A DNA stretch of 64,000 bases from positions 62,001-126,000 of the forward strand of contig JAUXUQ010000007.1 of assembly GCA_030680605.1 (NCBI GenBank). Direction: 5' to 3'. Below, piece after piece: positions 3,401-18,840 of the stretch. A model generated the notes under the pieces. The model saw only the letters and a program-made list of their open reading frames with translations, had not been told where the DNA came from and made no database searches. The position numbers and the translations under genes are program-made. Position 1 is the stretch's first letter. The number at the start of each line of letters is the position of its first letter. The DNA is from Gammaproteobacteria bacterium. Lineage in GTDB: Bacteria > Pseudomonadota > Gammaproteobacteria > SURF-13.

Positions 3401-4157
3401 CGTTTAGCGCAGCCTGTTTCAGTGGTACCGCATCAAACGGTGCGAGGGTTGCGCTCACTGTGGCTTGTGCCGCACCCACACTTCCCGTGCCTGCCAGTTT
3501 GATAGCGCCCAGACTACCTGCGAGGGTTACATCTACCTTGTAGGGGTGTGGTTGCCCTGCGTGATCAAGTTGCACTCGCCCACCCAACCGATAGGGTAAG
3601 ACAGCCCCCATACCGATGATCGCATCTCCCCTTCCCCAGGGAGTATCGAGTGTAACCCTCACCTGATACTCGCCCTCCGGGTTATTCAGTGAAAGTTTCA
3701 AGCGTGAAAACTCGTGGCGCTGGTCGGCTGTCTCAATCACTATATGCTCCGCCATCGCGGCAGGTATCTCCAATCCCAGCGGAAACTGTAGTGTATTCGG
3801 GAGCTGTAGCGGTTCAGTACCTGGCTGCTTTATGGTCAACCTGAGTTTTTGTATCCGTAGTGTCTGCACATGTATTTTCTTGTCGAGCACGATGTCACGG
3901 GGGGACCAGTCAAACTCAAACCCGCTCAACTCTATACGACGTTCTGCTGTCTCAAACACCAGCGTTGCGATCCGTATCGGACCATACAGCGAACCCTCAA
4001 CCCCCTGCAGTTCCAGCCTGCCATCGCTATTCGCAACGGTATACTCTGCCAGCCACAGCAACACCGGTGTGCGGCCCACGAACCAGAGGGTGCCTGCTGT
4101 GCTGGCCAGCAGCAGAATGGCTATCAACCACGCCCGTCGGGATTTTCGAAACGCCAT
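417..4157 (-). CDS. tamB: Translocation and assembly module inner-membrane subunit TamB
   Basis: The 1246-residue protein has an N-terminal membrane anchor (about residues 9-29, hydrophobic after KSRRAW) followed by a very long, repetitive, beta-rich periplasmic region and the C-terminal DUF490/TamB domain (last 350 or so residues, ending in the family-typical aromatic tail FYSFSFD). TamB spans the periplasm and works with TamA in outer-membrane protein insertion and, as more recent work indicates, phospholipid transport to the outer membrane. Its ATG shares one base with the TGA stop of tamA (TGATG at 4155-4159), which implies translational coupling. The length matches the usual 1200-1300 residues. 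The assignment rests on length, domain layout and the neighbouring tamA. Confidence 0.93.
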   Translation of the reverse strand: MAFRKSRRAWLIAILLLASTAGTLWFVGRTPVLLWLAEYTVANSDGRLELQGVEGSLYGPIRIATLVFETAERRIELSGFEFDWSPRDIVLDKKIHVQTLRIQKLRLTIKQPGTEPLQLPNTLQFPLGLEIPAAMAEHIVIETADQRHEFSRLKLSLNNPEGEYQVRVTLDTPWGRGDAIIGMGAVLPYRLGGRVQLDHAGQPHPYKVDVTLAGSLGAIKLAGTGSVGAAQATVSATLAPFDAVPLKQAALNAQHINPQQFGADLPQADVAVDVTLQAKSPDIFQGVVGVVNATHGTLDGARIPFKQLQAVFEGTFDKLAFGELQLDLAEAGRFSGAGGLQQGKLSFDLTTTGLNLRGIHSTLKPTQLAGKVQVAVEGTTHIVRADLGQEQYRIQLDALHRDAVVEIKSARISSADSELALQGALKLAQAREFQAEGTLIKFDPARFGDYPAASINARFTATGQLQPVLQSTLQVTIADSQYRNRPLSGKGGATVAMQRLWDADVALQLGADRFAVNGAFGEPGDVLNWRLNAADVGAWVGPRFGGRIAATGTLAGTLQQTAGTFDINAGNLDWDGAHHVAQFAASGQLEQGLDGPLALKAELHGYRSAGLEIEQVLINATGRRTAHEIGFSARNKIMDMRATFNGAWGEGSAWTGTVASLENHGRYPAMLKAPATLTLERRKFTLTGASVTFAGGEIRIGELMHSDGRMSSHGVLAGLRGAEFLRMTQQPLHAQTTLIFGGKWALSASDKLNGEIVLWRDQGDVTMLTEPHTALGLTRLALQTAVVDNQLTTELDLAGTTLGSITARIQSSLAQKDGVWGIVGDAALILDADANMPSIAWITPLLGKQMGIDGAVKVRMSAQGTVSRPNLSGELKIDGLKFDYPEYGISFRQGNLQASMDSSNQLAGHFDVQGGAGSVSGKGGVSWESGEPEVEVALVAKQLELLSRPDRLLIVSGNGDARLHAGKLGLSAKLRIDRGLIDLPEEDAPSLSEDVVVLGQPDAVENRKAPYAIIADIDLDLGDRFYLKGKGVDAQLVGAVKVHASGKTAPTASGKIQVAKGRYSAYGQSLSIERGILNFIGPIDNPGLNIVALRKNLPVEAGVAISGTAQVPQVRLTSIPSVPDSEKLSWLVLGHGLEKTSGGEFGALQAAAGALLAQGESVSLEAKIAHAAGLDEFSLSGAGGVENAVLTMGKRLSSRAYLTFEQGLAGASNLAKINYTLTERLSVRTQTGEESAVDLFYSFSFD

Positions 4158-5950
4158 CAGAATGCCACTCCAACGGAGAAATGCAGCTGCAGGCTTGCCT
4201 GGTCACGCCCATAGGCAACATCAACATTCAACGGGCCGACCGGGCTTTTCCAGCGTGCGCCGAGGCCATAACCGTGCGCCAGCCGGAACGACGCCAGGTC
4301 GTCTGCAGCATTGCCGACATCATAAAATACTGCGGCGCCCCATTTCGGGCGCAGCCAGTGGACATACTCCACACTCGCCACACCAAGATAGCGGCCACCG
4401 ACAACAGCGTTGCCCTGCTTCACCCCCAGACTCAGATAGTCGTAACCACGCACAGACTGGTCACCTCCGGTGCGAAACAGAAAATCCGAGGGAATCCCCT
4501 GACGACTACTGGCCGCGACCATGCCCAACTCACCTCGCACGAGCAGGCTGTCCTGTTCACCCAGAGGATAATAATAGGCTGCTTTCAAGTAGCTGCGCGC
4601 AAAGCTTTGGTCAGAGAGCAGCGCCTTGCCAGCACCGCCCACCTGTGTACTCAGTAAATAACCTCTGGTCGGGTACAACAGATTATCCAGATCACGTCGC
4701 GCCCAGGCGTAATTCAAGCTCAACGCCTGACGCTGGTTTTCCTCTGCACCCAGTACCTTCTGTTGTTCTGTCTGATACTGGATGGCAAGCGTCGTCTCGA
4801 TCTTGCCAACCACGCGCGTTCGTTTTGTACCCAGTCCATACTTGGTTATATCCTCACCCTCTATGTCGCTACTCTCGGTGAAGACATCCAAGCTATCCAG
4901 ATAACCCCCCGCCGTGCGCGGCACCAGTATTTCACCTTTCAGAAACTGTCGATTGGTTTCAAGTTTAAGCAGACTGGTCAGGCGCCAGGCCTGGCCCAGA
5001 AAATCGAGATTCTCGTACTCCACCTGTCCACGTCCGCCGGTGTTGGTGCTGGCCCCGATACCAAAACCGATCCTTCTGGCAGGTCGCTCCGTAATCTCCA
5101 CCCGTACCGGCACATGCTCTGGCCTGAGCGGATCGGTCTCCATACTCACCAGTGCACTGGAAAAATAGGGGCTATCCTGCAGTCGTGACTGAAAATCGAG
5201 CAGGCGGGTTTGCGAGTATGGAGCACCCTCCCCAATCGGGCTGAGGCGATCAATGATCGAGCGCGGATAACGTGAAAGCCCTGCCACCTCCAGCGCTCCG
5301 AAAGTAAATGCAGGCCCGCTATCAAGCGCAAGATACAACACCACCTCCCGTGTGTCGGGATTCACCGTCGCCTGACTTGCGCTTATCGTGGCCGCAGGAT
5401 ACTGCTCAATCAGTAACTCCTTTAATGCAGAGCGCTTGGCCGCCTCCCATTCTGCCTGCCTGAATACACTGCCCGGCTGCAACGGCCATACCTCGTGCAG
5501 CTTCTGCAGGCGCAGGGCATTTTCTTCTGGGCCATCCTCAAAATCACCGCGCACCTCCAGATCGAATCGAACCACCCGCACCGGCTCACCTGGTTCTACC
5601 GTGAAGCTCACCACCCATGCACCATCCTTTCCCTCAAGCGATGAGTCGATTGTGGGTGAGTAGAATCCCTCGGTCGACAACAGCTCGCGGGTATTATCCG
5701 GCGCCTTGCGCAACAACAGGCGCAACTGATCCTCATTCATGCGTGGATTATCACGCCACTTATAGATATCCAGGTACTGCTCCAGCAAGGCACGGTAGGA
5801 CTCCGGGATATCCAGCTCAATCGAGTAACGAAAGTCCTGTGCGGACGCCAGGACTGGCACAAAAAACAGACAAAGTGCTCCGATGCTGGCATACCGTGTG
5901 AGGGTATGCCGCGCACACAGCAAAGCTCGCAAAATAGGCACCGACTGCAT
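4157..5950 (-). CDS. tamA: Outer-membrane Omp85-family protein TamA
   Basis: TamA is an Omp85 beta-barrel protein with N-terminal POTRA domains that forms a complex with TamB. The proposed 597-residue product starts with a signal peptide (MQSVPILR..., cleavage probably after LASA), then POTRA modules (about residues 40-260) and a barrel ending in the aromatic C-terminal signature (HFSVGVAF). The frame is open back to 6139, but the start at 5950 is preferred. It has GAGG six bases upstream and gives a clean signal peptide, while the upstream alternatives (5968, 6139) add sequence that does not look like a leader. The gene overlaps tamB by one base. A divergent bufferin-like gene lies upstream. 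Confidence 0.9.
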   Translation of the reverse strand: MQSVPILRALLCARHTLTRYASIGALCLFFVPVLASAQDFRYSIELDIPESYRALLEQYLDIYKWRDNPRMNEDQLRLLLRKAPDNTRELLSTEGFYSPTIDSSLEGKDGAWVVSFTVEPGEPVRVVRFDLEVRGDFEDGPEENALRLQKLHEVWPLQPGSVFRQAEWEAAKRSALKELLIEQYPAATISASQATVNPDTREVVLYLALDSGPAFTFGALEVAGLSRYPRSIIDRLSPIGEGAPYSQTRLLDFQSRLQDSPYFSSALVSMETDPLRPEHVPVRVEITERPARRIGFGIGASTNTGGRGQVEYENLDFLGQAWRLTSLLKLETNRQFLKGEILVPRTAGGYLDSLDVFTESSDIEGEDITKYGLGTKRTRVVGKIETTLAIQYQTEQQKVLGAEENQRQALSLNYAWARRDLDNLLYPTRGYLLSTQVGGAGKALLSDQSFARSYLKAAYYYPLGEQDSLLVRGELGMVAASSRQGIPSDFLFRTGGDQSVRGYDYLSLGVKQGNAVVGGRYLGVASVEYVHWLRPKWGAAVFYDVGNAADDLASFRLAHGYGLGARWKSPVGPLNVDVAYGRDQASLQLHFSVGVAF

Positions 5951-6270
5951 AGGGAACCTCGGGCGCATGTTTTCAGATAGAGCCGCTGGGGGTTGCACAA
6001 AACACACTGTGGCAGGCTGTAAATCTGTGCTAATTATACTCTGTTCAATCAATGGCATCGAGTCACCATCGAGGTGGTACGCGTGCATAAGCACCCGCTG
6101 GCCCGCATGCCACATAGACTGCATCTGCACTGTCCACAAGCCCGGCCACGATGTGACCGAATTGTGATTTTCTTGTGAGACAGAGGCAAGATATGCCGTC
6201 TAATCTGTACACCGTAGGCCAGACGCCTACGATCACTCTAACTATCCATCACTTGAACTGGAGCACATAT
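5951..6270. promoter_or_regulatory. Divergent intergenic region between tamA and the bufferin-like gene
   Basis: About 320 bases without a convincing gene. It should carry promoters for both divergent genes. Two copies of TTGTGA, 11 bases apart start to start (6162-6167 and 6173-6178), could be a direct-repeat regulator site. A perfect 7-bp inverted repeat (CGTAGGC, five-base loop, GCCTACG; 6213-6231) lies 40 bases before the bufferin start, where it could be an operator or leader hairpin. No well-spaced sigma-70 pair was found. The open frames running through here are extensions of the two flanking genes. Confidence 0.4.
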
Positions 6271-6546
6271 ATGAACACTGCAAATGCATTCAAGGGCTTA
6301 CTCCTCGCAACCGCTGCAGCCGGCATGTTCGCTACCGCGGGTCTCGCCTCTGCCGCTGACAAAATGGACAGCAAGGAAGGGAAAATCCACTGTAACGGCG
6401 TGAACTCCTGCAAAGGAACAGGTGACTGCAAAGGCGTGAATGCCTGCCAAGGCCAAAACAGCTGCAAAGGCAAGGGCTTTCTGTTCATGACACCTGAGGA
6501 CTGCAAGGCTGCACAGGCAAAAATGGAAATGGAGATGCACAAGTAG
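6271..6546 (+). CDS. Bufferin-like (BufA2-type) exported cysteine-repeat peptide
   Basis: A 91-residue precursor with a signal peptide (about residues 1-28, ending LASA) and a short mature part with six cysteines. Five of them fall in an exact six-residue period (C at every sixth position: CNGVNS, CKGTGD, CKGVNA, CQGQNS, CKGKGF), and the sixth lies in PEDC near the C terminus. This pattern matches the BufA2 bufferins, periplasmic ribosomally made peptides whose cysteines are modified by an MNIO (DUF692) enzyme and which sequester copper. GGAG eight bases before the ATG supports this start over the longer frame. DoxX follows, as in many bufferin loci, but no DUF692 or DUF2063 partner is visible in the window. 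The family call is from memory of the motif; copper binding is inferred. Confidence 0.78.
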   Translation: MNTANAFKGLLLATAAAGMFATAGLASAADKMDSKEGKIHCNGVNSCKGTGDCKGVNACQGQNSCKGKGFLFMTPEDCKAAQAKMEMEMHK

Positions 6547-6565
6547 TCATAGCGGTCACGAACAA

Positions 6566-6590
6566 CCGGCCGGGAACTATTCCCGGCCGG
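6566..6590 (+). terminator. Perfect 10-bp hairpin between the bufferin-like gene and doxX
   Basis: CCGGCCGGGA is followed by a five-base loop and TCCCGGCCGG, a perfect GC-rich stem starting 20 bases after the bufferin stop. No T-run follows, so it is not a standard intrinsic terminator. It may stabilise the 3' end of the peptide mRNA or partly attenuate read-through, letting the peptide be made in excess over DoxX. Confidence 0.55.
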
Positions 6591-6617
6591 TCACGCGCGC
6601 ATCAACGGGAGAGCCTC

Positions 6618-7091
6618 ATGTACAGCAGATTTTCCTCAGGAATAAATGCAATCGTCAACGGGGCAAATGCACTGAGTTCACTGCTTGATCTCTTTATACG
6701 ATTGTGGATGGCCAACATCTTCTGGTCGTCCGGTCTTGTCAAAATCGGTAATTTTGACAAGACACTGGATATATTCACCACTGTTTTCAAAGTGCCGCTG
6801 TTCAACCCCACACTGGCTGCGGTATTGGCCACTGGCACGGAACTGATCGGCGCTGTGTTGCTGGTGCTGGGCCTGGCAACCAGATTCGCCAGTGCCTCGC
6901 TAATCTTTCTGACGTTCATGGCCGCCATCTCATACCATCTGGACGTGCCCGATGCTGCCAGCACCTGGGGCGAAGGCTATCTGTCCCATATCTACTTCGG
7001 TATATTACTCACGGTACTGATGCTGCATGGCCCCGGCAAGCTGTCGCTTGATCACTACCTCTGGCGCCGCTATTCGACACATGGCAACTAA
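6618..7091 (+). CDS. DoxX family membrane protein
   Basis: The 157-residue protein has four predicted transmembrane helices and the DoxX-family features of the first helix (RLWMANIFWSSGLVKI), the second membrane pair (LAAVLATGTELIGAVLLVLGLATR) and the HGPGKLSLD motif near the C terminus. Members of this family are inner-membrane proteins of poorly defined function, sometimes linked to thiol or sulfur redox chemistry. A clear ribosome site (GGGAGAG) precedes the ATG. The gene lies 71 bases after the bufferin-like gene on the same strand, separated by a strong hairpin. Its role with that peptide, perhaps in redox or copper handling at the membrane, is inferred from context only. Confidence 0.85.
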   Translation: MYSRFSSGINAIVNGANALSSLLDLFIRLWMANIFWSSGLVKIGNFDKTLDIFTTVFKVPLFNPTLAAVLATGTELIGAVLLVLGLATRFASASLIFLTFMAAISYHLDVPDAASTWGEGYLSHIYFGILLTVLMLHGPGKLSLDHYLWRRYSTHGN

Positions 7092-7118: not shown

Positions 7119-7670
7119 TCAAAGACGCCGAAACTCGGTACCTTTGCACTTTGGGCACTCAGCCAAATGTCCGGATTCAGACCGGACTATAAGTTCTCCA
7201 CAAGCAGTACAGGAGAATGTACCACCACTGGCCATTTCACCGGTACGATACGTGAGGTGGCCCAGTTTGGTGCCGGCCTTTTGCAGCCACTCTCCGACAG
7301 CGACCGAAGCCTGCGACAGAAAAAGCGCACTGCGATCACACCACACGCTGAAAAGATCGGCGCTTTTATCGGAAAAGGCGTCCCACTTTGGCCCCAGCTT
7401 CTCCATGGCATAAGCGGCGTCCTTCTTCAACGCCTCAGATGCCTTGTTCAACATCTCTGCCGTATAACCTCCAGCCTCCTTTAGCCGGCTACCTGCCTTG
7501 TCAACCGCCTCGCGGATAGTCTCGGCATTCACATTCTCACGCATCTCTGAAAACACCCGCTTTGCTTCCTGCCGCAGTCTTTCATAGGCCGCCACCTCAT
7601 CCTGCTTTTGTTGCGCGCTGTCTTCCACCTTTTGCCCTGCTGTATCGTCCTTCTTTATTTCCTCAGTCAT
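7119..7670 (-). CDS. DUF1451-type zinc-ribbon protein (YbeL-like)
   Basis: A 183-residue soluble protein with a charged, helix-rich N-terminal half (residues 1-110, many K, E and A; probably coiled coil or amphipathic) and a C-terminal zinc ribbon with two cysteine pairs (CTAC and CPKC, about residues 153-175) ending FRRL. The segment GGTFSCTACGE is characteristic of the DUF1451 family that includes E. coli YbeL. Function is unknown; the ribbon suggests protein or nucleic-acid contact. The ATG at 7670 has AAGGGG six bases upstream and is preferred to the in-frame start at 7709. It is convergent with doxX. Confidence 0.8.
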   Translation of the reverse strand: MTEEIKKDDTAGQKVEDSAQQKQDEVAAYERLRQEAKRVFSEMRENVNAETIREAVDKAGSRLKEAGGYTAEMLNKASEALKKDAAYAMEKLGPKWDAFSDKSADLFSVWCDRSALFLSQASVAVGEWLQKAGTKLGHLTYRTGEMASGGTFSCTACGELIVRSESGHLAECPKCKGTEFRRL

Positions 7671-7946
7671 GATTAACCCCTTGCCATTTGCAATTACATT
7701 TTCTGTCAATAATAAACGCCAAGTACAGGTACTGCTTCAGCATATGGACATTGTAGCAGCCCCGTAACGGTGGCGTCATGATGCTGACAAACAACAATAA
7801 GAATAATAAGTCACAAAACCAACAGCCTGGACGCCATAGGTTATTGATTCCCATGCGGTTGACGTATGTTTACATTGTCGTAGCGGGACTACAGGAATGC
7901 TGCTTCCAGCTAAAGTCAGGCCTGAATATTAAAATGTCGGTCTGGA

Positions 7947-8233: not shown

Positions 8234-8437
8234 TCACATACGGCGCCTGCGGACAATGTGACTATACAGAAAGGCGCCCAACAGCATGCCCACGATCAAC
8301 ACACCGAGAATCAGCAAGGCACGCGACATCGCCACTGTCCACAGCAGTAAACGCACTTCTACTACCGTGGTATTCTGGACAATGAATACTGCCACCAGGC
8401 TGACCAGAACCAGCATCAGGATCAGCTTCGGACTCAT
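8234..8437 (-). CDS. lapA: LapA domain (DUF1049) small membrane protein
   Basis: A 67-residue protein with two hydrophobic helices (about residues 4-22 and 38-60), the family signature [14 protein letters not shown] and a basic tail (HIVRRRRM). LapA-domain proteins are inner-membrane proteins; E. coli LapA works with LapB to control lipopolysaccharide assembly. No lapB is nearby, and the frame sits downstream of glgX with a four-base ATGA overlap, so it is translationally coupled to a glycogen gene rather than placed with lapB. It is shorter than E. coli LapA and lacks most of the C-terminal region, so the exact role is uncertain. Confidence 0.75.
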
Positions 8438-10608
8438 TGCATATTATCTCCGCCATGTGTGCCGTGGGACACGGTACTGGTCTCGCGTAACAGTACGCAG
8501 GAACGGCCCGCGAGTGGATATGCCTGCCCCGGCATGGTGAGTCCATCTCGTTCCAGTCCCGCACCCCGACTCGTGTCGAACTCCCGCAGCCATCCTGTAT
8601 CCGGTTTGAAGCCGGGCACCACAAATGGCACTACATCATGGTGCGCATTGAGCAGGAGTATGAAGCTGTCATCCTCCAGCGGCACGCCGCGCTCATCGAC
8701 GTCACTCACACCCTCGCCAGCGATATACAACCCCAGGCTGCGGGCATAAGATGCCTGCCATTCCTCGTCCGTCATTTCCTCACCGTCTGGCTTTAGCCAG
8801 ACGATATCCTTGAGGGCGCTGCCACGAATACGCCTGCCGTGAAAAAACGAGCGGCGGCGGAACACCGGATGTGACTTGCTCAAATCAATGACACGTCGCA
8901 CAAACTCAAACAGCTGCCTGTCTTCAGGCTTTATGTCCCAGCTTACCCAGCTGAGTTCGTTGTCCTGGCAGTAGGCATTATTGTTTCCCATTTGCGTGCG
9001 CCCTGCACAGTCGCCTGCAACAAACATCGGCACGCCCTGCGAGAGCAGCAGCGTCGCCATGAAATTACGTTTCTGTTGTGCGCGCAGGGCCGTAATTTCC
9101 GGGTCATCGGTTGGGCCCTCGACACCACAGTTCCAGCTCCGGTTGTTGTCGGTACCGTCGCGGCTGTCCTCACCATTCGCCTCATTATGTTTATGGTTGT
9201 AGCTCACGAGATCGTTGAGTGTGAAGCCGTCGTGCGCGGTAACGAAGTTAACGCTGGCATGAGGCCGACGCCCACTGTGCGCATACAGATCACTCGAGCC
9301 GGTCAGCCGGTGCGCAAGATCACCTATCAGCCCCCCCTCTCCCTTCCAGTAGGAGCGCACATCATCACGGTAACGGTCATTCCACTCCACCCAACCCACA
9401 GGGAAGTTGCCTACCTGATAGCCGCCCTCACCCAGATCCCATGGCTCGGCGATGAGTTTGACCTGGGACAGCACCGGGTCCTGGTGGATGATGTCAAAAA
9501 ATGCCCCCAGCCGGTCTACGTCATGCAGCTCACGCGCCAGCGCGCTGGCAAGATCAAAGCGGAATCCGTCCACATGCATCTCCTGCACCCAGTAGCGCAG
9601 GCTGTCCATGATCAACTGCAACACGCGCGGGTGCAGCATGTTGAGCGTGTTGCCACAACCGGTGTAATCCATGTAGTGACACGGATTATCGGCAACCAGC
9701 CGGTAATAGGCAGCGTTATCGATGCCCCGGAAGCTCAACGTGGGCCCGAGATGATTGCCCTCGGCGGTGTGGTTGTATACCACGTCCAGAATGACCTCGA
9801 TACCGGCTGAATGCAGCTTCTTGACCATCGTCTTGAACTCTGACACCAGACCGGTCGCCGAGTAGCGCGGCTCCGGCGCAAAGTAGCTTATCGAGTTGTA
9901 ACCCCAGTAATTACGCAGACCCTTTTCGGCCAGGTGGCGGTCGTCTACAAAGCCGTGTATCGGCATCAGCTCCACTGCCGTAACACCCAGCCGCTTCAGG
10001 TAATCAATGATGGGGGCGCTTGCCAGGCCCAGATAGGTACCTCGCAGTGTCTCCGGCACATCGGGATGCAGCTTGGTAAAGCCCTTCACATGCAGCTCGT
10101 AAATAATGGTGTCATGCCAGGGTATGCGCGGTGGCTTGTCATCGCCCCAGGTGAATGCGGGATCAATGACCTGGCACTTTGGCATGCCCGGTGCGCTGTC
10201 CCTCCGGTCAAGGACGAGGTCTGCACCACTGGCGCCGACACGATAGCCGAAATGGGCGTCGCTCCAGCGCAGCGCACCGACGATATCCTTTGCATAGGGA
10301 TCGAGCAACAGCTTGTTGGGGTTGAAACGGTGGCCTTCCGCAGGCTTGTAGGGTCCGTGTACGCGGTAGCCGTACGGTAACCCGGGGCGCGCATCCGGCA
10401 AGTAACAATGCCATACCTGATCCGTCTGCCAGCGCACGGGGATGCGGATGATCTCTCGCCGTCCCTTGTGATCAAACAGGCACAACTCTACCTTTTCCGC
10501 ATGCTCAGAGAACAGCGCAAAGTTCACACCCTCTCCATCCCACGTAGCACCCAGAGGATAAGGACGGCCTGGCCAAACACTGAGGTTGCTGGTCGTAAAC
10601 TGATACAT
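8434..10608 (-). CDS. glgX: Glycogen debranching enzyme GlgX (isoamylase-type)
   Basis: A 724-residue GH13_11 enzyme that hydrolyses alpha-1,6 branches in glycogen or limit dextrin. It has an N-terminal CBM48 (residues 10-150: [21 protein letters not shown]) and a (beta/alpha)8 domain with the nucleophile in DGFRFDLAS, the acid/base Glu in IAEPWDLG and the third acid in [12 protein letters not shown]. Length is typical. Released short linear maltodextrins would feed MalQ, TreY and TreZ encoded elsewhere in the window. The stop overlaps lapA (ATGA at 8434-8437). Confidence 0.96.
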
Positions 10609-10651
10609 GTTGCTGATGTCTCTGATATATTATTTTGAATTGGCGCACGGC

Positions 10652-10690
10652 GGCAGACATCACGTTACCCGATGAAACGTGATGTCTGCC
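10652..10690. repeat. Perfect 15-bp inverted repeat upstream of glgX
   Basis: GGCAGACATCACGTT (10652-10666) and its exact complement (10676-10690) are separated by nine bases. It lies in the 144-base gap between the mechanosensitive-type gene (ends at 10753) and the glgX start (10608), both on the minus strand. Neither side has a T-run, so a classical intrinsic terminator is unlikely. It could be a regulator operator for glgX, a transcript-stabilising hairpin or a repeat-family member. Confidence 0.65.
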
Positions 10691-10752
10691 ACTTGCACTC
10701 CTTATTACAACAAACTCTATGGATACTGCCTTGGGCAGTCACCCCATATTGT

Positions 10753-11436
10753 TCAGCCATGCCCGGAATCATTGCGGTTAGGCCACCACCGCTCCAGCAG
10801 CCCTGCCGCCCACTTCTGGCCACCGATACCAAATGCTATCGCCAGCGCGAGCGCCACACCCGCCAACAGGATCAGGAAACTCTGCCGCACGATGTCCACA
10901 CCGATACTGATCTGGTCTAGCGCAATCAGCACCACGAAGATCAGCGTGGCAAAACGCGCCAGCCTGCCGAGCAGCTCTGCATCCTGTAACTCTACATTTT
11001 TACCAAAGGTAGTAACAGTAGCGTCTATAAAACGGGCAAAATAGGCACCAAATGCCAGCACCAATACTGCCACAATCACATTGGGGATAAACAACGTTAC
11101 CTTGCCAAGCAGATCGGTGACATGGGTCAGCCCAAGGCCATTGAAAGCCACTACCAGTGCCGCCAGAATCACCAGCCAGTAAATAAGCAACCCAAGAATA
11201 TCGACTGTATCTGTTTTGGCTCCACCCTGTTGTAAAAAGCCATCAACACCTGCGCGCTCTGTCAGCACCTGAAAATTGATTGCCCTGAGCGCCCTGACTA
11301 CGGCGAACCTGATAATCTTCGCGAACAGCCAACCTGCCACCAGTATGGCTATGGCAACGATCAACTTCGGCAGGAATTCACCCAACTGGATCATAAACAC
11401 ACGTACTGGCTCAAGCATAATATTGACCTGTTCCAT
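10753..11436 (-). CDS. Small-conductance mechanosensitive-type membrane protein (conserved TM-helix repeats)
   Basis: A 227-residue protein with a first hydrophobic helix and basic edge typical of this family (LPKLIVAIAILVAGWLFAKIIRFAVVRAL), then further hydrophobic segments around residues 80-105, 115-140, 160-180 and 185-205. The repeated pattern FIPNVIVAVLVLAFG resembles the conserved-TM-helix proteins that align with the MscS membrane part. It lacks the large cytoplasmic MscS domain. The start at 11436 has GGAGAG upstream. It sits between trehalose and glycogen genes, which fits a role in osmotic adaptation, but channel activity is not shown by sequence. Confidence 0.75.
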   Translation of the reverse strand: MEQVNIMLEPVRVFMIQLGEFLPKLIVAIAILVAGWLFAKIIRFAVVRALRAINFQVLTERAGVDGFLQQGGAKTDTVDILGLLIYWLVILAALVVAFNGLGLTHVTDLLGKVTLFIPNVIVAVLVLAFGAYFARFIDATVTTFGKNVELQDAELLGRLARFATLIFVVLIALDQISIGVDIVRQSFLILLAGVALALAIAFGIGGQKWAAGLLERWWPNRNDSGHG

Positions 11437-11498
11437 CGCTCTCTCCTTCACTTGGTTTGATATTCACAGCCGGCATCCAGAGCCTTGCTGCGGACCCC

Positions 11499-11516
11499 TG
11501 CTGACCCCCGTCAGCA
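11499..11516. repeat. Short inverted repeat between treS/mak and the channel-like gene
   Basis: TGCTGAC, a four-base loop and GTCAGCA lie in the 106-base gap after the treS/maltokinase stop. The stem is followed on the minus strand by no T-run. It could mark the 3' end of the glgB-glgE-treS transcript or shield the next ribosome site; evidence is weak. Confidence 0.35.
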
Positions 11517-11542
11517 TTGCATTGTACTCCTTGAACTTTACT

Positions 11543-14500
11543 CTATTTGCCCTGGTTCACCACTTCCAGTATCCCGCGCAACGGGATAGCCACCCATTCA
11601 GGCCGATTGGCAAGTTCATAACGTAACTCATACAAGGCCTTCTCCAGCACAAACAACTCCAGCAGCTGTTTCGCGTCTCCCCATGCCCCATAAAGCCCGG
11701 AGTCACGCGTAGTTTCTTCATAAGCATCAAGAAAAGCCCGCCGTACCTCAGCCTCCCATATCTTCCCGTATGGCTGGAAGGCGGCAAAATCATCTGGCCG
11801 TTCGGTGCTGAGGCGAGCAAGCATGGTATACAAGGCATAATTGAATGAGCGCAGCATACCGGCGACATCTTTCAGTGAGGAATGCTTCTGGCGACGTTCA
11901 CTCAACGGCCGTGCTGGTTCGCCTTCAAAATCAATAATCATGAAGTCATTTTCAACCAGCAACACCTGTCCCAGATGATAGTCCCCGTGGTAGCGGGTCT
12001 TGATTGCGGCGACTCGCGATGGCACACAGGTCTCAATGTGTTTGAGCATATCCTTGCGCCTTGATAGCAGGCTATCCGCAACGGCTTGCACTTCTACATC
12101 CAGACTGGAACGATTGCGCTCAAGCTGGTCCAGCGTTGCTACCGCCTCTTCGCGTACCTGCCGCATCCAGACATCCAGGTCGTCCTGCTCGATCGGCTCC
12201 GGGTCAAAGGCCGGATCACCTGTTGTAATAGACAGGGCCTTGTGCAACTCAGCAGTACGTACACCCAGCGTATGCACCAGGGCCAGATAGCCGCCATGCG
12301 CCTCGCCGGACAATTCAGCCTCTGTGCAGCTACAACTGTACTCCAGAAAACGCTCCAGATAATTCAGCGTTGTGCTCCAGCCGTCACCCTGATTGCTGAC
12401 GTAACCCTGCAGTACTGCCAACGTGCATTTGCTGCCGTCTTCAACCTCATACTCGACCACCCCAGCCACGGGCACGGCGTGCTTGAAGTGGGCAACTTCC
12501 GTCAGAAAGCGGCCTATTTCAACTTCGGGATTAGTCCCTGTGTGCAGTCGCCGGTACCCCTTGAGGAAGAGATTATCGCCCAGCTGTACCGTAGTATTAC
12601 TGCTCTGAGCTCCTGGCGTATGCATGGTCAAGCCGGAGATGTCTTCGCCCACCAGCTTGGCAAATACACTGGTAGGCAGAAAGTTGATGAGGCCTCTTTC
12701 GCTCACCAACTTGAATCCTTCACTCATGGCCTCTACCAGAGCACGGCAGAACTCTACGTCAGCAAAGGCATCACCCATAATACCGATACGCGCTTGCTGG
12801 CGTACCCTGGCTATTGTGGCCGGCATCAGCCTGTCCATGCGTTCGTCGTCATCCTCCCATGCCAGTGCCAGCGGCAGAAAGTACATTGATGCGTCTGCTG
12901 CGGCAGCGCCCTCTACGCGGAAGATACCCATCAGCCAGTTGGCTTGTTCACCACCCCACTCAACATGGTCCGTCAGTGCTACACACTGGGTAGCCACGTC
13001 CTTGGCTGCATACCAGCGTTGGCCTGCAACAAAATGCGGCAGCACTTCTGTCTCAAGTTGTTCCCGGGCCTTCTCCGCCATGACAATGCGCCAGGGAATG
13101 ACGCGGTCACGGAAAAAGCTGAGCCAGCCATCGAACAACACCACCACCGGCAGCTCCTCGCGCTGCAAACGCTCCTCATGCCACTCGGGCACTTCCCCAC
13201 CCTTGGCAAGGCGGAACCAGTAAAACCCATAGCCCGGCAGCGTCAGCAGATAAGGCAATTCGCCAATGGGTGGGAAAGGCGTACGCCCCATCAGTTCCAG
13301 CGGCACACTACCCTTGTAGTTTGAAAGATCCAGCTCCACAGGCTGCGCCGTGCGCGCAAGGTTATTCACGCAGAGCGTGACTTCTGAATCGTACTCCCGC
13401 AGAAAGGCGAGGATCTTGCGGTTTCCTGGTCGCAAAAAGATCAGTTTGCCGCGACCAAACGCCTGGTAGGTTTTGCGCACTGCCAACAGGCGTCGCATCC
13501 AGTTAAGCAGTGACGAAGGATCACGCAATTGTGCCTCCACGTTCACCGCCTCATAACCACGCACGGGATCCATAACCGGAGGAAGGAACAGGCGCTGCGG
13601 GTCAGCGCGGGAAAAGCCTGCGTTACGGTCGGGGCTCCACTGCATCGGTGTACGCACACCATTACGGTCACCGAGATAAATGTTGTCACCCATGCCTATC
13701 TCATCGCCATAATAGATAATGGGCGAGCCCGGCATGGACAATAACAGGCTGTTCATCAGCTTGATCTTCTCGTGATCGTTGTCCATCAGTGGCCCCAACC
13801 GGCGCCGGATACCCAAATTGATGCGCGCGCGCGTATCAGCAGCGTACATCTGATACATATAATCACGCTCTTTACTGGTAACCATCTCGAGCGTGAGCTC
13901 ATCATGGTTGCGGAGAAAGATCGCCCATTGTGAGTTGGCTGGTATCTCGGGCGTTTGTTGCATGATCTCTACTATTGGATGCCGGTCCTCCTGGGCAATT
14001 GCCATGTACATGCGCGGCATCAGGGGGAAATGGTAGGCCATGTGACATTCGTCACCTTCGCCAAAATAGCCACGCACCTCCTCCGGCCACTGATTTGCCT
14101 CGGCGAGGAACATGCGGTTCTTGTAGTGCTTGTCCAGTTCTGCCCGCATGTATTTTATGACTTCATGCGTCTCCGGAAGATTTTCATTTGTTGTGCCTTC
14201 ACGCACACATAGATAGGGGATGGCGTCGAGACGTACGCCATCAACGCCGATATCGAACCAAAAACGCATCACCCGCATCACCGCCTTCACGACATGGGGG
14301 TTATTGTGATTAAGATCCGGCTGGTGGGAGAAGAAGCGATGCCAGTAATAAGCCTTGGCTACATCATCCCAGGCCCAGTTTGATTTTTCGGTATCGCTGA
14401 ATATGATCCGGGTGTCTTCAAACTTCTTTACCGTGTCGCTCCATACGTAATAATCACGTTTGGCAGAGCCGGGAGGCGCATGACGAGCCGACTGAAACCA

Positions 14501-14866
14501 TGGGTGTTGATCAGATGTGTGGTTGACCACCAGCTCCGTGATCACGCGCAAACCACGACGATGGGCCTCGCTTATCAGGGTGCGAAAATCCGCCATCGTC
14601 CCGTAGTCGGGGTGAACGTTACGGTAATCGGATATGTCGTAACCATCGTCACGTTGCGGCGAGGGATAAAACGGCAGCAGCCAGATCGTGTTTACACCCA
14701 GATCGTTAATATAATCCAGCTTCGATATCAGCCCGGCAAAGTCCCCCACCCCGTCACCGTTGCTGTCCATGAAGGCTTTTACATGCACCTCATAGATAAT
14801 GGCGTCCTTATACCACAAGGGATCGTCACTGATCGCCGAGGAAACCTGTTTGGCTTTAGCGTGCAT
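11543..14866 (-). CDS. treS: Trehalose synthase-maltokinase fusion (TreS-Mak/Pep2)
   Basis: A 1107-residue bifunctional enzyme. Residues 1 to about 560 are a GH13_16 trehalose synthase that interconverts maltose and trehalose (nucleophile DGVRLDAIPYL, Glu in FLAEANQWP, Asp in FLRNHDELTLEM). From about residue 600 (FVAGQRWYAAK) it is a maltokinase that makes maltose-1-phosphate with ATP; the kinase motif HGDYHLGQV (about residue 960) and the following FMIIDFEGEP are both present. The product is the donor for GlgE, encoded 9 bases upstream in the same operon. The fusion is a known form in GlgE-pathway bacteria. Both halves appear intact. Confidence 0.95.
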   Translation of the reverse strand: MHAKAKQVSSAISDDPLWYKDAIIYEVHVKAFMDSNGDGVGDFAGLISKLDYINDLGVNTIWLLPFYPSPQRDDGYDISDYRNVHPDYGTMADFRTLISEAHRRGLRVITELVVNHTSDQHPWFQSARHAPPGSAKRDYYVWSDTVKKFEDTRIIFSDTEKSNWAWDDVAKAYYWHRFFSHQPDLNHNNPHVVKAVMRVMRFWFDIGVDGVRLDAIPYLCVREGTTNENLPETHEVIKYMRAELDKHYKNRMFLAEANQWPEEVRGYFGEGDECHMAYHFPLMPRMYMAIAQEDRHPIVEIMQQTPEIPANSQWAIFLRNHDELTLEMVTSKERDYMYQMYAADTRARINLGIRRRLGPLMDNDHEKIKLMNSLLLSMPGSPIIYYGDEIGMGDNIYLGDRNGVRTPMQWSPDRNAGFSRADPQRLFLPPVMDPVRGYEAVNVEAQLRDPSSLLNWMRRLLAVRKTYQAFGRGKLIFLRPGNRKILAFLREYDSEVTLCVNNLARTAQPVELDLSNYKGSVPLELMGRTPFPPIGELPYLLTLPGYGFYWFRLAKGGEVPEWHEERLQREELPVVVLFDGWLSFFRDRVIPWRIVMAEKAREQLETEVLPHFVAGQRWYAAKDVATQCVALTDHVEWGGEQANWLMGIFRVEGAAAADASMYFLPLALAWEDDDERMDRLMPATIARVRQQARIGIMGDAFADVEFCRALVEAMSEGFKLVSERGLINFLPTSVFAKLVGEDISGLTMHTPGAQSSNTTVQLGDNLFLKGYRRLHTGTNPEVEIGRFLTEVAHFKHAVPVAGVVEYEVEDGSKCTLAVLQGYVSNQGDGWSTTLNYLERFLEYSCSCTEAELSGEAHGGYLALVHTLGVRTAELHKALSITTGDPAFDPEPIEQDDLDVWMRQVREEAVATLDQLERNRSSLDVEVQAVADSLLSRRKDMLKHIETCVPSRVAAIKTRYHGDYHLGQVLLVENDFMIIDFEGEPARPLSERRQKHSSLKDVAGMLRSFNYALYTMLARLSTERPDDFAAFQPYGKIWEAEVRRAFLDAYEETTRDSGLYGAWGDAKQLLELFVLEKALYELRYELANRPEWVAIPLRGILEVVNQGK

Positions 14867-14875
14867 CCGGCAATC

Positions 14876-16885
14876 CTACAGATAGTAGTCAAAATCGCGT
14901 TCGTTATGCACATGCCGACGCAGGCGAAATACATGTGCAGGCGCAGCATGCGGATCCAACTGCACATAATTGCGTGCACCATGCCAGAGATAACGCACAT
15001 CGGTAAGTAAGTCGTGCATTTGATACGGGCCATCGCCCGTGATCCCGAAGCGCGCCGGTGGGAGATCGATCCAGCCGGACTGTGTGTGATACGGGTCGAG
15101 ATTAACCACAACCAGTATGACCTCACTGGCATCATCGACGGCCTTGCTGTAGCAGAGCAGGTTATCGTTATCCACACCATGAAATTGCAGGCTCCAGTCA
15201 CTCTGCAACGCCGCATTATCGCGCCGTATACTGTTAAGCCGCGCAATCAGGGCGCTCAGGCTGTCAGTACGGGTGGTATCCCACTGCATCAGTTGATATT
15301 TTTCGGAATTGTTATATTCCTCTGCACCCGGCTTATGCGTCTGGTCATCGGCGAGCTCGAAGGCCGGCCCATAGATACCGTAGTTGGCAGAAAGCGTAGC
15401 CGCCAATATCTGTCTGATCATGAACGCCGGACGACCGCCATATTGGAGATACTCACTCAGAATATCCGGTGTATTGGGCCAGACATTGGGCCGGAAATAC
15501 TCGCGTGATTCAGAGCTTGCGAGCTCAGTGAAATATTCGGTCAGCTCCCCCCGGGTATTGCGCCAGGTGAAATAGGTGTATGACTGCGAGAACCCGAGCT
15601 TGGCCAGGCAATGCATCACCTTGGGGCGGGTAAAGGCCTCGGCCAGAAAAATAACCTCGGGGTGTTTACGCGTTATTTCGTCTATCACCCACTCCCAGAA
15701 GGCGAATGATTTCGTATGCGGATTATCAACGCGAAATATATACACGCCCTGATCGATCCAGAACTGAAATACACTCTTTAATTCCTGCCACAGGCCTTCC
15801 CATGCCTCGGTCTCAAAATCGAATGGGTAGATATCCTGATATTTCTTGGGCGGGTTTTCCGCGTACTGGATACTCCCATCGGGGCGCTTGCGGAACCATT
15901 CCGGGTGCTCTTTCACATAGGGATGATCCGGGGCGCACTGAAAGGCAATATCAAGCGCAAGTTCCATACCCAGTGCTTCGGCACGTTTGCGGAAGGCTGA
16001 AAAATCCTCCAGGGTGCCAAGCTCAGGATGCAGGGATTTGTGCCCGCCCTCCTTGCTGCCAATGGCCCATGGGCTGCCTACATCATCCGCCGTCGCCGCC
16101 AGGATGTTGTTTTTACCCTTGCGAAAACTATGGCCAATGGGATGCACCGGTGGGAGATACACAACGTCAAAACCCATGCGAGCAACATACTCAAGCTGGG
16201 CCATGCATGTTTTGAAACTGCCATGCTGTCCTTCGCCGCCAAACGAGCGCGGGAAGAACTCATACCAGGCGCCGAAGCGTGCCCGTTCGCGGTCGACGCG
16301 GACCCTGAGTTCTGTACCGTAATGCGTCTCGAAGCGCCTGTCCGCGCAGGTATACATGAGGCGGGACAATTCCTCATCCTGCGCCAAGGTACGTTTTTCA
16401 CTCGCATCGCGTTTGCTGCTCAACCCCCTGACGGTTGCCTCGAGGTGACTCGCGTCCTTGCCCGTGGCACGCGCAGCAGCGGCAGCAACCAGCGCTGCAC
16501 CGGCTCGATAATCGAGCTCGGTATCTTCGTTCACAGCGATACGCTTGCCGAGGTCCCGCCGCCAGGACTCGAAGTGATCCACCCAGGCACAAACGCTGTA
16601 GCGGTAAAATCCGGTTTGAGACACGCTGAAGAATGCTGCCCAGCGGTCATTGCCCAAGGGGACCATGGGCAGCTCGAACCACTTGCCCTCCGATTCATAC
16701 TGGTAGCGCAGTACGCACATGATTGCGTCATGCCCGTCAGTAAAGGCATCCACCTCTACCCCAACCTTTTCGCCAACAACACGCTTTATGGGGTAACGCC
16801 CACCATCGACCTGTGGCGTCAGTGTTTCTATCACAACACGCTGACGAGCCTCTGCGGGCAAACTGCGCGCAACCGGCTTGGCCAT
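14876..16885 (-). CDS. glgE: Alpha-1,4-glucan:maltose-1-phosphate maltosyltransferase GlgE
   Basis: A 669-residue GH13_3 transferase that moves maltosyl units from maltose-1-phosphate to a growing alpha-1,4-glucan. The nucleophile motif is VDNPHTKSFAFWEW and the acid/base Glu lies in IFLAEAFTRP, both diagnostic of GlgE. The N-terminal domain (about 1-170) and central catalytic domain are complete. The ATG at 16885 shares a base with the glgB stop (TAATG) and is preceded by a G-rich ribosome site (AGGGGGG), so it is preferred to the in-frame codon at 16918. The operon order is glgB-glgE-treS/mak, which with the kinase half supplies the full GlgE pathway. Confidence 0.96.
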   Translation of the reverse strand: MAKPVARSLPAEARQRVVIETLTPQVDGGRYPIKRVVGEKVGVEVDAFTDGHDAIMCVLRYQYESEGKWFELPMVPLGNDRWAAFFSVSQTGFYRYSVCAWVDHFESWRRDLGKRIAVNEDTELDYRAGAALVAAAAARATGKDASHLEATVRGLSSKRDASEKRTLAQDEELSRLMYTCADRRFETHYGTELRVRVDRERARFGAWYEFFPRSFGGEGQHGSFKTCMAQLEYVARMGFDVVYLPPVHPIGHSFRKGKNNILAATADDVGSPWAIGSKEGGHKSLHPELGTLEDFSAFRKRAEALGMELALDIAFQCAPDHPYVKEHPEWFRKRPDGSIQYAENPPKKYQDIYPFDFETEAWEGLWQELKSVFQFWIDQGVYIFRVDNPHTKSFAFWEWVIDEITRKHPEVIFLAEAFTRPKVMHCLAKLGFSQSYTYFTWRNTRGELTEYFTELASSESREYFRPNVWPNTPDILSEYLQYGGRPAFMIRQILAATLSANYGIYGPAFELADDQTHKPGAEEYNNSEKYQLMQWDTTRTDSLSALIARLNSIRRDNAALQSDWSLQFHGVDNDNLLCYSKAVDDASEVILVVVNLDPYHTQSGWIDLPPARFGITGDGPYQMHDLLTDVRYLWHGARNYVQLDPHAAPAHVFRLRRHVHNERDFDYYL

Positions 16886-18840
16886 TACACACCCCCCTGC
16901 GAAGGCGCCTTGAGACACACCATGGCCAGCGGCGGCAAGGTCAGCGTGAGCGAGTGATACCGTTCCTGTACCTGCACAGGGGCAGAGTGCACCCCACCCT
17001 GATTGCCTTGTCCGCTGCCACCATAAAGACTGGCATCGCTATTCAGCAACTCGACCCAATACCCTTCACGCGGTACGCCGACACGATAGTTGTGGCGTGG
17101 CAGTGGCGTGAAATTACACACGACCAATACCATATCGTCTGGATTGCGCCCCTTGCGCAGGAAGCTCACGATACTCGCTTCCCAGCCATGCAGATCAACC
17201 CACTCAAAGCCCTCGGCCTGAAAGTCCTGCTCATGCAGCGCCCGTTCAGAGCGGTACAAATGATTCATGTCTTTTACGAATCGTTGCAAGCCCTGGTTAG
17301 GCGCATAATCCAGCAGATGCCAGTCCAGGCTATCGTCATGATTCCATTCACGCCACTGACCAAACTCCCCGCCCATGAACAAGAGCTTCTTGCCGGGGTG
17401 GGTATACTGATAGCCAAACAGCAGTCGCATATTTGCAAATTTCTGCCAATCATCCCCCGGCATTCTGCGCAGCAACGAACCCTTGCCGTGCACAACCTCA
17501 TCGTGCGATAGCGGCAACGTAAAGTTTTCGTTGAAGGCATACCAGATACTGAAGGAAATCTGGTCGTGGTGGTATTTGCGGTACACCGGATCACGCCCGA
17601 TGTAGGCAAGCGTATCGTGCATCCAGCCCATATTCCATTTCATGCCAAATCCCAATCCGCCCAGATAAGTGGGCCGCGACACCATCGGCCAGGCCGTCGA
17701 TTCTTCGGCGATGGTCTGTACATCAGGGTGGTCGCGGTATATCGCCTCGTTGAGATCACGCATGAATTCTATCGCGTGAATGTCTTCCCGGCCCCCATAT
17801 TCATTGGGTATCCACTCACCCTCCTTGCGCGCATAATCGAGATAAAGCATGGAGGCCACGGCGTCCACCCGCAAACCATCAATGTGATAGCGATCCAGCC
17901 AGAAAAGCGCGCTCGAGATCAAAATAGAACGTACTTCGTGGCGACCATAGTTGAAGATGCTCGACTTCCACTCCGGATGGTAGCCACGCTTGGGGTCAGC
18001 GTGTTCAAACAGGTAGGTGCCGTCGAAATACACCAGCCCGTGCTCGTCGGTCGGGAAGTGTGAAGGCACCCAGTCAAGTACCACACCAACGCCATTCTGA
18101 TGCAGGCAGTCGATAAGGTACATGCAGTCCTGCGGCGTACCGTAACGCGCCGTAGGTACAAAATATCCCGTGGTCTGATAACCCCATGAACCGTAAAACG
18201 GGTGTTCGGTCACCGGCATCAGTTCGACATGGGTGAAGCCCATATCACGCACATAGTCGGTCAGTTGCTGCGCCTGCTCCCGGTAGGTGAGAAAGCGGTT
18301 GTCTTCATTCGGTACGCGACGCCAAGAACCCAGATGCGCCTCGTATATCCCCCACGGTGCATCCAGCGCATTTACCTGCGCACGCGTATCCATCCATGCC
18401 TTGTCACCCCAGGCGTAGTCCGTATCCCATACTATCGAGGCCGTCTTAGGCGGCATCTCGCTGCGCATGGCGAAGGGGTCTGCCTTATTCACCTGATAGT
18501 TGTTGTAGCGCGATGAAATGCGATATTTATAACAGGTACCGGCGCCGATAGCTCCTACAAATCCCTCCCAAATACCCGAGCCATCGTCACGCATACGCAA
18601 TGGGTGCGCACCGCTATTCCAGCCGTTGAAATCGCCGATAACAGAAACGCCCTTGGCATTAGGTGCCCACACCGCAAAATGCACACCGTCCACACCTTGT
18701 ACGCTGATACGATGCGCACCCAGCTTCTCATGTAAACGGAAATGCTTACCCTGGCGGAAAAGATAGATGTCATGCTCGGTGAGCAAGCCAACACCGTATA
18801 TCACGCGCTCGGCTGAATCGTGTGCTGTCGTCGTTCCCAT
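16885..18840 (-). CDS. glgB: 1,4-alpha-glucan branching enzyme GlgB
   Basis: A 651-residue GH13_9 branching enzyme with a CBM48 (about residues 25-120, GVHFAVWAPNAKGVSVIGDFNGW) and a catalytic domain with nucleophile DGLRVDAVASMLYLDY, Glu in TIAEESTAWP and Asp in LPLSHDEVVHG. It lacks the extra N1 module of longer GlgB proteins, a common short form. AGAGGA lies seven bases before the ATG. It is first in the glgB-glgE-treS/mak operon and would introduce alpha-1,6 branches into the GlgE polymer. Confidence 0.96.
   Translation of the reverse strand: MGTTTAHDSAERVIYGVGLLTEHDIYLFRQGKHFRLHEKLGAHRISVQGVDGVHFAVWAPNAKGVSVIGDFNGWNSGAHPLRMRDDGSGIWEGFVGAIGAGTCYKYRISSRYNNYQVNKADPFAMRSEMPPKTASIVWDTDYAWGDKAWMDTRAQVNALDAPWGIYEAHLGSWRRVPNEDNRFLTYREQAQQLTDYVRDMGFTHVELMPVTEHPFYGSWGYQTTGYFVPTARYGTPQDCMYLIDCLHQNGVGVVLDWVPSHFPTDEHGLVYFDGTYLFEHADPKRGYHPEWKSSIFNYGRHEVRSILISSALFWLDRYHIDGLRVDAVASMLYLDYARKEGEWIPNEYGGREDIHAIEFMRDLNEAIYRDHPDVQTIAEESTAWPMVSRPTYLGGLGFGMKWNMGWMHDTLAYIGRDPVYRKYHHDQISFSIWYAFNENFTLPLSHDEVVHGKGSLLRRMPGDDWQKFANMRLLFGYQYTHPGKKLLFMGGEFGQWREWNHDDSLDWHLLDYAPNQGLQRFVKDMNHLYRSERALHEQDFQAEGFEWVDLHGWEASIVSFLRKGRNPDDMVLVVCNFTPLPRHNYRVGVPREGYWVELLNSDASLYGGSGQGNQGGVHSAPVQVQERYHSLTLTLPPLAMVCLKAPSQGGV

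Follow-up and report, generated by a model that had tools for sequence, protein, structure and literature searches.

A second, unlinked bufA2 gene followed by doxX in a gammaproteobacterial genome with a single bufferin maturation operon

Judged from its sequence, the gene at positions 6271-6546 of the analysed window (a 64-kb stretch of DNA, G000:C7:62001-126000) is a BufA2 paralogue followed by a doxX gene of the bufferin type, that is an ordinary second copy and a locus of an already known kind. It is considered probable (roughly 0.83) that the locus represents a second, unlinked bufferin-2 unit, bufA2-doxX, whose peptide is matured in trans by the BufB and BufC proteins encoded on another contig of the genome, C2, and is used for periplasmic copper sequestration. 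According to this proposal the BufB-BufC complex of contig C2 would recognise the window precursor in the cytoplasm by means of its signal peptide, some core cysteines of the precursor would be converted into 5-thiooxazoles, and the peptide would be exported by Sec to the periplasm and sequester copper there, with DoxX assisting in the membrane. The separate bufA2-doxX unit may serve to raise the dosage of precursor or to allow expression in a different pattern. The features of the locus are as follows:

6271..6546, plus strand: bufA2 paralogue, an unlinked bufferin precursor of 91 aa (NF050166 match, signal peptide and Cys motifs)
6565..6591, plus strand: perfect 12-bp inverted repeat with a 3-nt loop between bufA2 and doxX, no T-run
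6618..7091, plus strand: DoxX membrane protein of the bufferin/MNIO-operon type, 157 aa (PF07681, HvfX scores, surroundings of relatives)

The open reading frame 6271-6546 begins with an ATG codon and its 91-aa product carries an N-terminal Sec-type signal peptide (MNTANAFKGLLLATAAAGMFATAGLASA), which according to sequence reading and the family alignment covers approximately residues 1-28. The product scores 77.2 bits (E 8e-22) against NF050166 Cu_RiPP_BufA2, the NCBIfam model named "BufA2 family periplasmic bufferin-type metallophore" with a cut-off of 60 bits, and is thus a BufA2 bufferin by NCBI's own model. The first-pass annotation had described an exported BufA2-like peptide with five Cys at an exact six-residue period; this description holds and a sixth Cys can be added to it, as the residues are located at 41, 47, 53, 59, 65 and 78 (spacing 6,6,6,6,13). 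When the mature window peptide was shuffled with its composition preserved, a run of five Cys with period 6 arose in 5 of 200,000 cases. The same spacing is found in 11 of the 41 scored members of the BufA2 family and the variant 6,6,7,6,13 in 25 of them. Four of the six Cys are directly followed by Lys, forming Cys-Lys motifs. The window peptide therefore shares with the BufA2 / Buf_6-12Cys bufferins (NF050166) the Sec signal peptide, a score above the NCBI cut-off, six Cys spaced 6,6,6(7),6,13 and the core CxGVNxCKG...CKGxG. In contrast to them, its gene does not adjoin bufB-bufC, and doxX comes next.

No DUF692/MNIO or DUF2063 gene is present in the 64-kb window, in agreement with the first reading of the DNA, and the only matches to both families in the genome lie on contig C2. 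Search of the whole genome (1.87 Mb, 99.4% complete) revealed one MNIO and one DUF2063 protein, encoded side by side at 322022-323148. The MNIO scores 386.7 bits to PF05114 and 394 bits against NF050167 ("MNIO family bufferin maturase", cut-off 310), and directly upstream of it, in the same direction, a second BufA2 is encoded (NF050166, 77.9 bits). The region of approximately 322.0-323.45 kb on contig C2 is a complete bufA2-bufB-bufC operon; adjacent precursor, MNIO and DUF2063 genes are found there and not at the window locus. Near this operon there are a mercuric-reductase-like oxidoreductase, an ArsS arsenosugar radical-SAM gene (459 bits) and a protein which by appearance is TVP38-like and has no NCBIfam match. 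The whole-genome search found no DUF2282 (BufA1) precursor, and the second DoxX-family protein of the genome is encoded on contig C22, where no bufferin gene adjoins it. The statement that the usual maturation enzymes are missing hence applies to the locus but not to the genome. It had been set beforehand that a genome search for DUF692 and DUF2063 proteins which found them with another bufA would make the window gene a plain paralogue, and both were found together with another bufA2. Nothing essential is missing for the window bufA2, because its genome does encode the maturation enzymes, next to the other BufA2 copy in an operon of normal make-up.

Specificity residues and the leader bear on whether the C2 enzymes fit the window peptide. 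MNIOs acting on Cys-Lys precursors have been described to carry Asp just after the catalytic Asp, where enzymes of Lys-Cys precursors carry Phe (PMC13097082). The C2 BufB has ERDD at this specificity site, which is the BufA2-type Asp-Asp signature; Asp after the catalytic Asp is present in 28 of 30 BufA2-linked MNIOs as compared with 0 of 21 from DoxX-containing (mostly BufA1-type) operons (p ~2e-12). The signal peptide is conserved in linked and unlinked BufA2 alike (Gly9 88%, Ala13 97%, Ala16 100%, Ala17 91%). Work cited in PMC13419390 reports that the signal peptide of bufferins also serves as the leader, and PMC12452194 gives this too, on the basis of preliminary data; the leader-function reports concern Buf1 and HvfA and not BufA2. 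The Asp-Asp signature, the four Cys-Lys motifs and the conserved signal peptide favour action of the C2 enzymes on the window peptide, and modification in trans by the only MNIO of the genome appears most likely from these sequence features. The window and C2 BufA2 are 49% identical over 63 aa; the two copies have drifted apart, therefore differing modification or metal use is possible.

BufA2 genes without neighbouring enzymes are common. Among 144 relatives 45 BufA2 matches above the cut-off were noted, and comparison of this list with MNIO positions left 10 of the 45, one of them at a contig end, with no MNIO within ~3 kb, which is the definition of unlinked used here. Four belong to the family of the window genome (the window gene, G003:C11, G004:C3 and G005:C88), and the remaining ones are G033:C26, G087, G090:C91, G137:C14 and two in G127, the second at the contig end. 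Searching the genome collection with the window peptide itself gave three loci only, all enzyme-linked. In two other genera of the family (L038:4799-6471 and L041:4999-6673) the unlinked BufA2 is located directly before genes which by appearance are FliK-like (flagellar hook-length) and chemoreceptor-like. In two different families (L096:4445-7455 and L044:7187-9885) BufA2, unlinked in one case and linked in the other, adjoins TVP38-like and mercuric-reductase-like genes. A published survey found that a sizeable share of both the Buf1 and the Buf2 precursors is unlinked (PMC12452194). The window gene resembles those in having no neighbouring MNIO while an MNIO and a PME-type 1 protein are encoded elsewhere in the genome, and there is no established difference from them; the BufA2-DoxX pairing is absent at the nine other unlinked BufA2 loci.

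For unlinked precursors the same survey allows both modification by enzymes of another locus and no modification at all (PMC12452194), so it leaves room for a window BufA2 that binds metal in the periplasm simply as an unmodified Cys-rich peptide, partnered by DoxX. The lack of local enzymes at the window locus agrees with such a peptide. The same can be said of G222, a genome listed as 100% complete: it encodes a DUF2282-DoxX unit, and the class search at E<=1e-10 revealed no MNIO in it. Units of a precursor and DoxX without enzymes may therefore occur in the sister family, and the G222 unit is possibly a true one. However, genomes with BufA2 but no MNIO are practically never seen. Among 369 genomes of the class, MNIO was found in 66 of the 67 with an above-cut-off BufA2 against 156 of the 302 others (Fisher p ~1e-15), and of 864 complete genomes with Buf_6-12Cys in the survey 0 are without MNIO (PMC12452194 Table 3). 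In the single exception, G127, the contig ends 180 bases from the second BufA2, on the side expected for bufB, and the operon is present in its congener G241; G127 was rejected as unproven as a genome truly devoid of MNIO, and the exception is probably an assembly gap. Moreover, the window peptide has kept its Cys-Lys motifs and the conserved signal peptide, as expected if BufBC still recognises it. The first-pass annotation had left the choice between action in trans and an unmodified peptide undecided; the complete C2 operon favours the former, and a peptide working unmodified is regarded as unlikely.

The DoxX protein encoded at 6618-7091, on the same strand and, as originally noticed, after the peptide gene, meets the family cut-off of PF07681 (61.8 bits) and reaches 77.1 bits against the HvfX family NF050144, just below the cut-off of 80; HvfX is called uncharacterised in PMC13419390. 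It is assigned to the bufferin-cluster type because, among the 30 closest DoxX matches whose surroundings were fetched, 19 adjoin BufB and BufC; one more adjoins a BufC-like gene. In six of the 30 (G014, G108, G224, G306, G323 and G222) a DUF2282 precursor is encoded near DoxX and MNIO is not directly alongside. One run of genes in G222 (L085:1065-2269; G222:C20, ~16-17 kb) comprises a DUF2282 (BufA1) precursor, DoxX and a thioredoxin-like gene. Units of BufA1 (DUF2282) and DoxX, for example in G014, G108 and G306, share with the window the order of precursor and then DoxX with MNIO elsewhere in the genome; they differ in the precursor, which is DUF2282 there and BufA2 in the window, whose genome has no DUF2282. 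No DoxX was found beside the other unlinked BufA2 genes in the stretch read at the nine loci, two of which are close to a contig end. A conserved bufA2-doxX pair of the family was rejected, as the unlinked BufA2 of G003, G004 and G005 have no adjoining DoxX. Since no other examined unlinked BufA2 adjoins DoxX, the role of the window DoxX is not backed by conservation of the pair. The pairing is a minor rearrangement of known parts, given that the DoxX is of the bufferin type, BufA1 has the same layout and DoxX is absent from the nine unlinked BufA2 loci. An independent two-gene metal-handling unit, with the peptide unmodified or with DoxX replacing the contribution of the maturation enzymes, is quite improbable.

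The inverted repeat at 6565-6591 is a possible transcript stabiliser or attenuator. The 91-nt stretch holding it folds at -30.7 kcal/mol (z -2.5), and hairpins of at least 8 bp follow bufA2 at 15 of 38 loci including the window, linked or not. An intrinsic terminator at this hairpin is unsupported, with no T-run and no terminator-like site. The unit is flanked on the opposite strand by a large open reading frame resembling, by appearance, an outer-membrane assembly protein (4157-6139, upstream) and by a gene of a zinc-ribbon DUF1451 protein (7119-7709, downstream). Further on, at 8434-16918 of the window, there is a run of large minus-strand reading frames which by appearance resemble glycoside hydrolases of glycogen/trehalose metabolism.

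The DoxX relatives in other genomes stand mostly at the end of bufA-bufB-bufC-doxX operons, and in two genomes of the same genus, G001 and G002, the only BufA2 is enzyme-linked, with no unlinked copy found and no DoxX of the window type. Both observations would agree with the window unit being a relic of such a full operon, decaying or unexpressed. Nevertheless, bufA2 and doxX both have intact frames with GGAG-type ribosome-binding sites, all six Cys and their spacing are preserved, and unlinked copies exist in three other genomes of the family, all of which speak against a relic and make it very improbable. A tree of 38 BufA2 peptides joins the window copy to the copies from its family and to two enzyme-linked relatives in a supported group (98/96). 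The C2 copy falls in an enzyme-linked clade (98/95) with the window copy outside it; the inner order is weak. Because the window and C2 copies fall in separate supported groups, the divergence of the two BufA2 copies probably predates that of the genera within the family. The unlinked status was gained or lost several times on this tree, with at least 4 changes forced by supported branches. Claims made from it are kept modest because the peptide is short.

The window genome encodes a single MNIO and a single DUF2063 protein next to two BufA2 peptides and no BufA1. It thereby offers a clean natural setting in which to ask whether the same BufBC pair can act in trans on two precursors that have diverged, a question which the published survey left open. 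The locus is otherwise ordinary.
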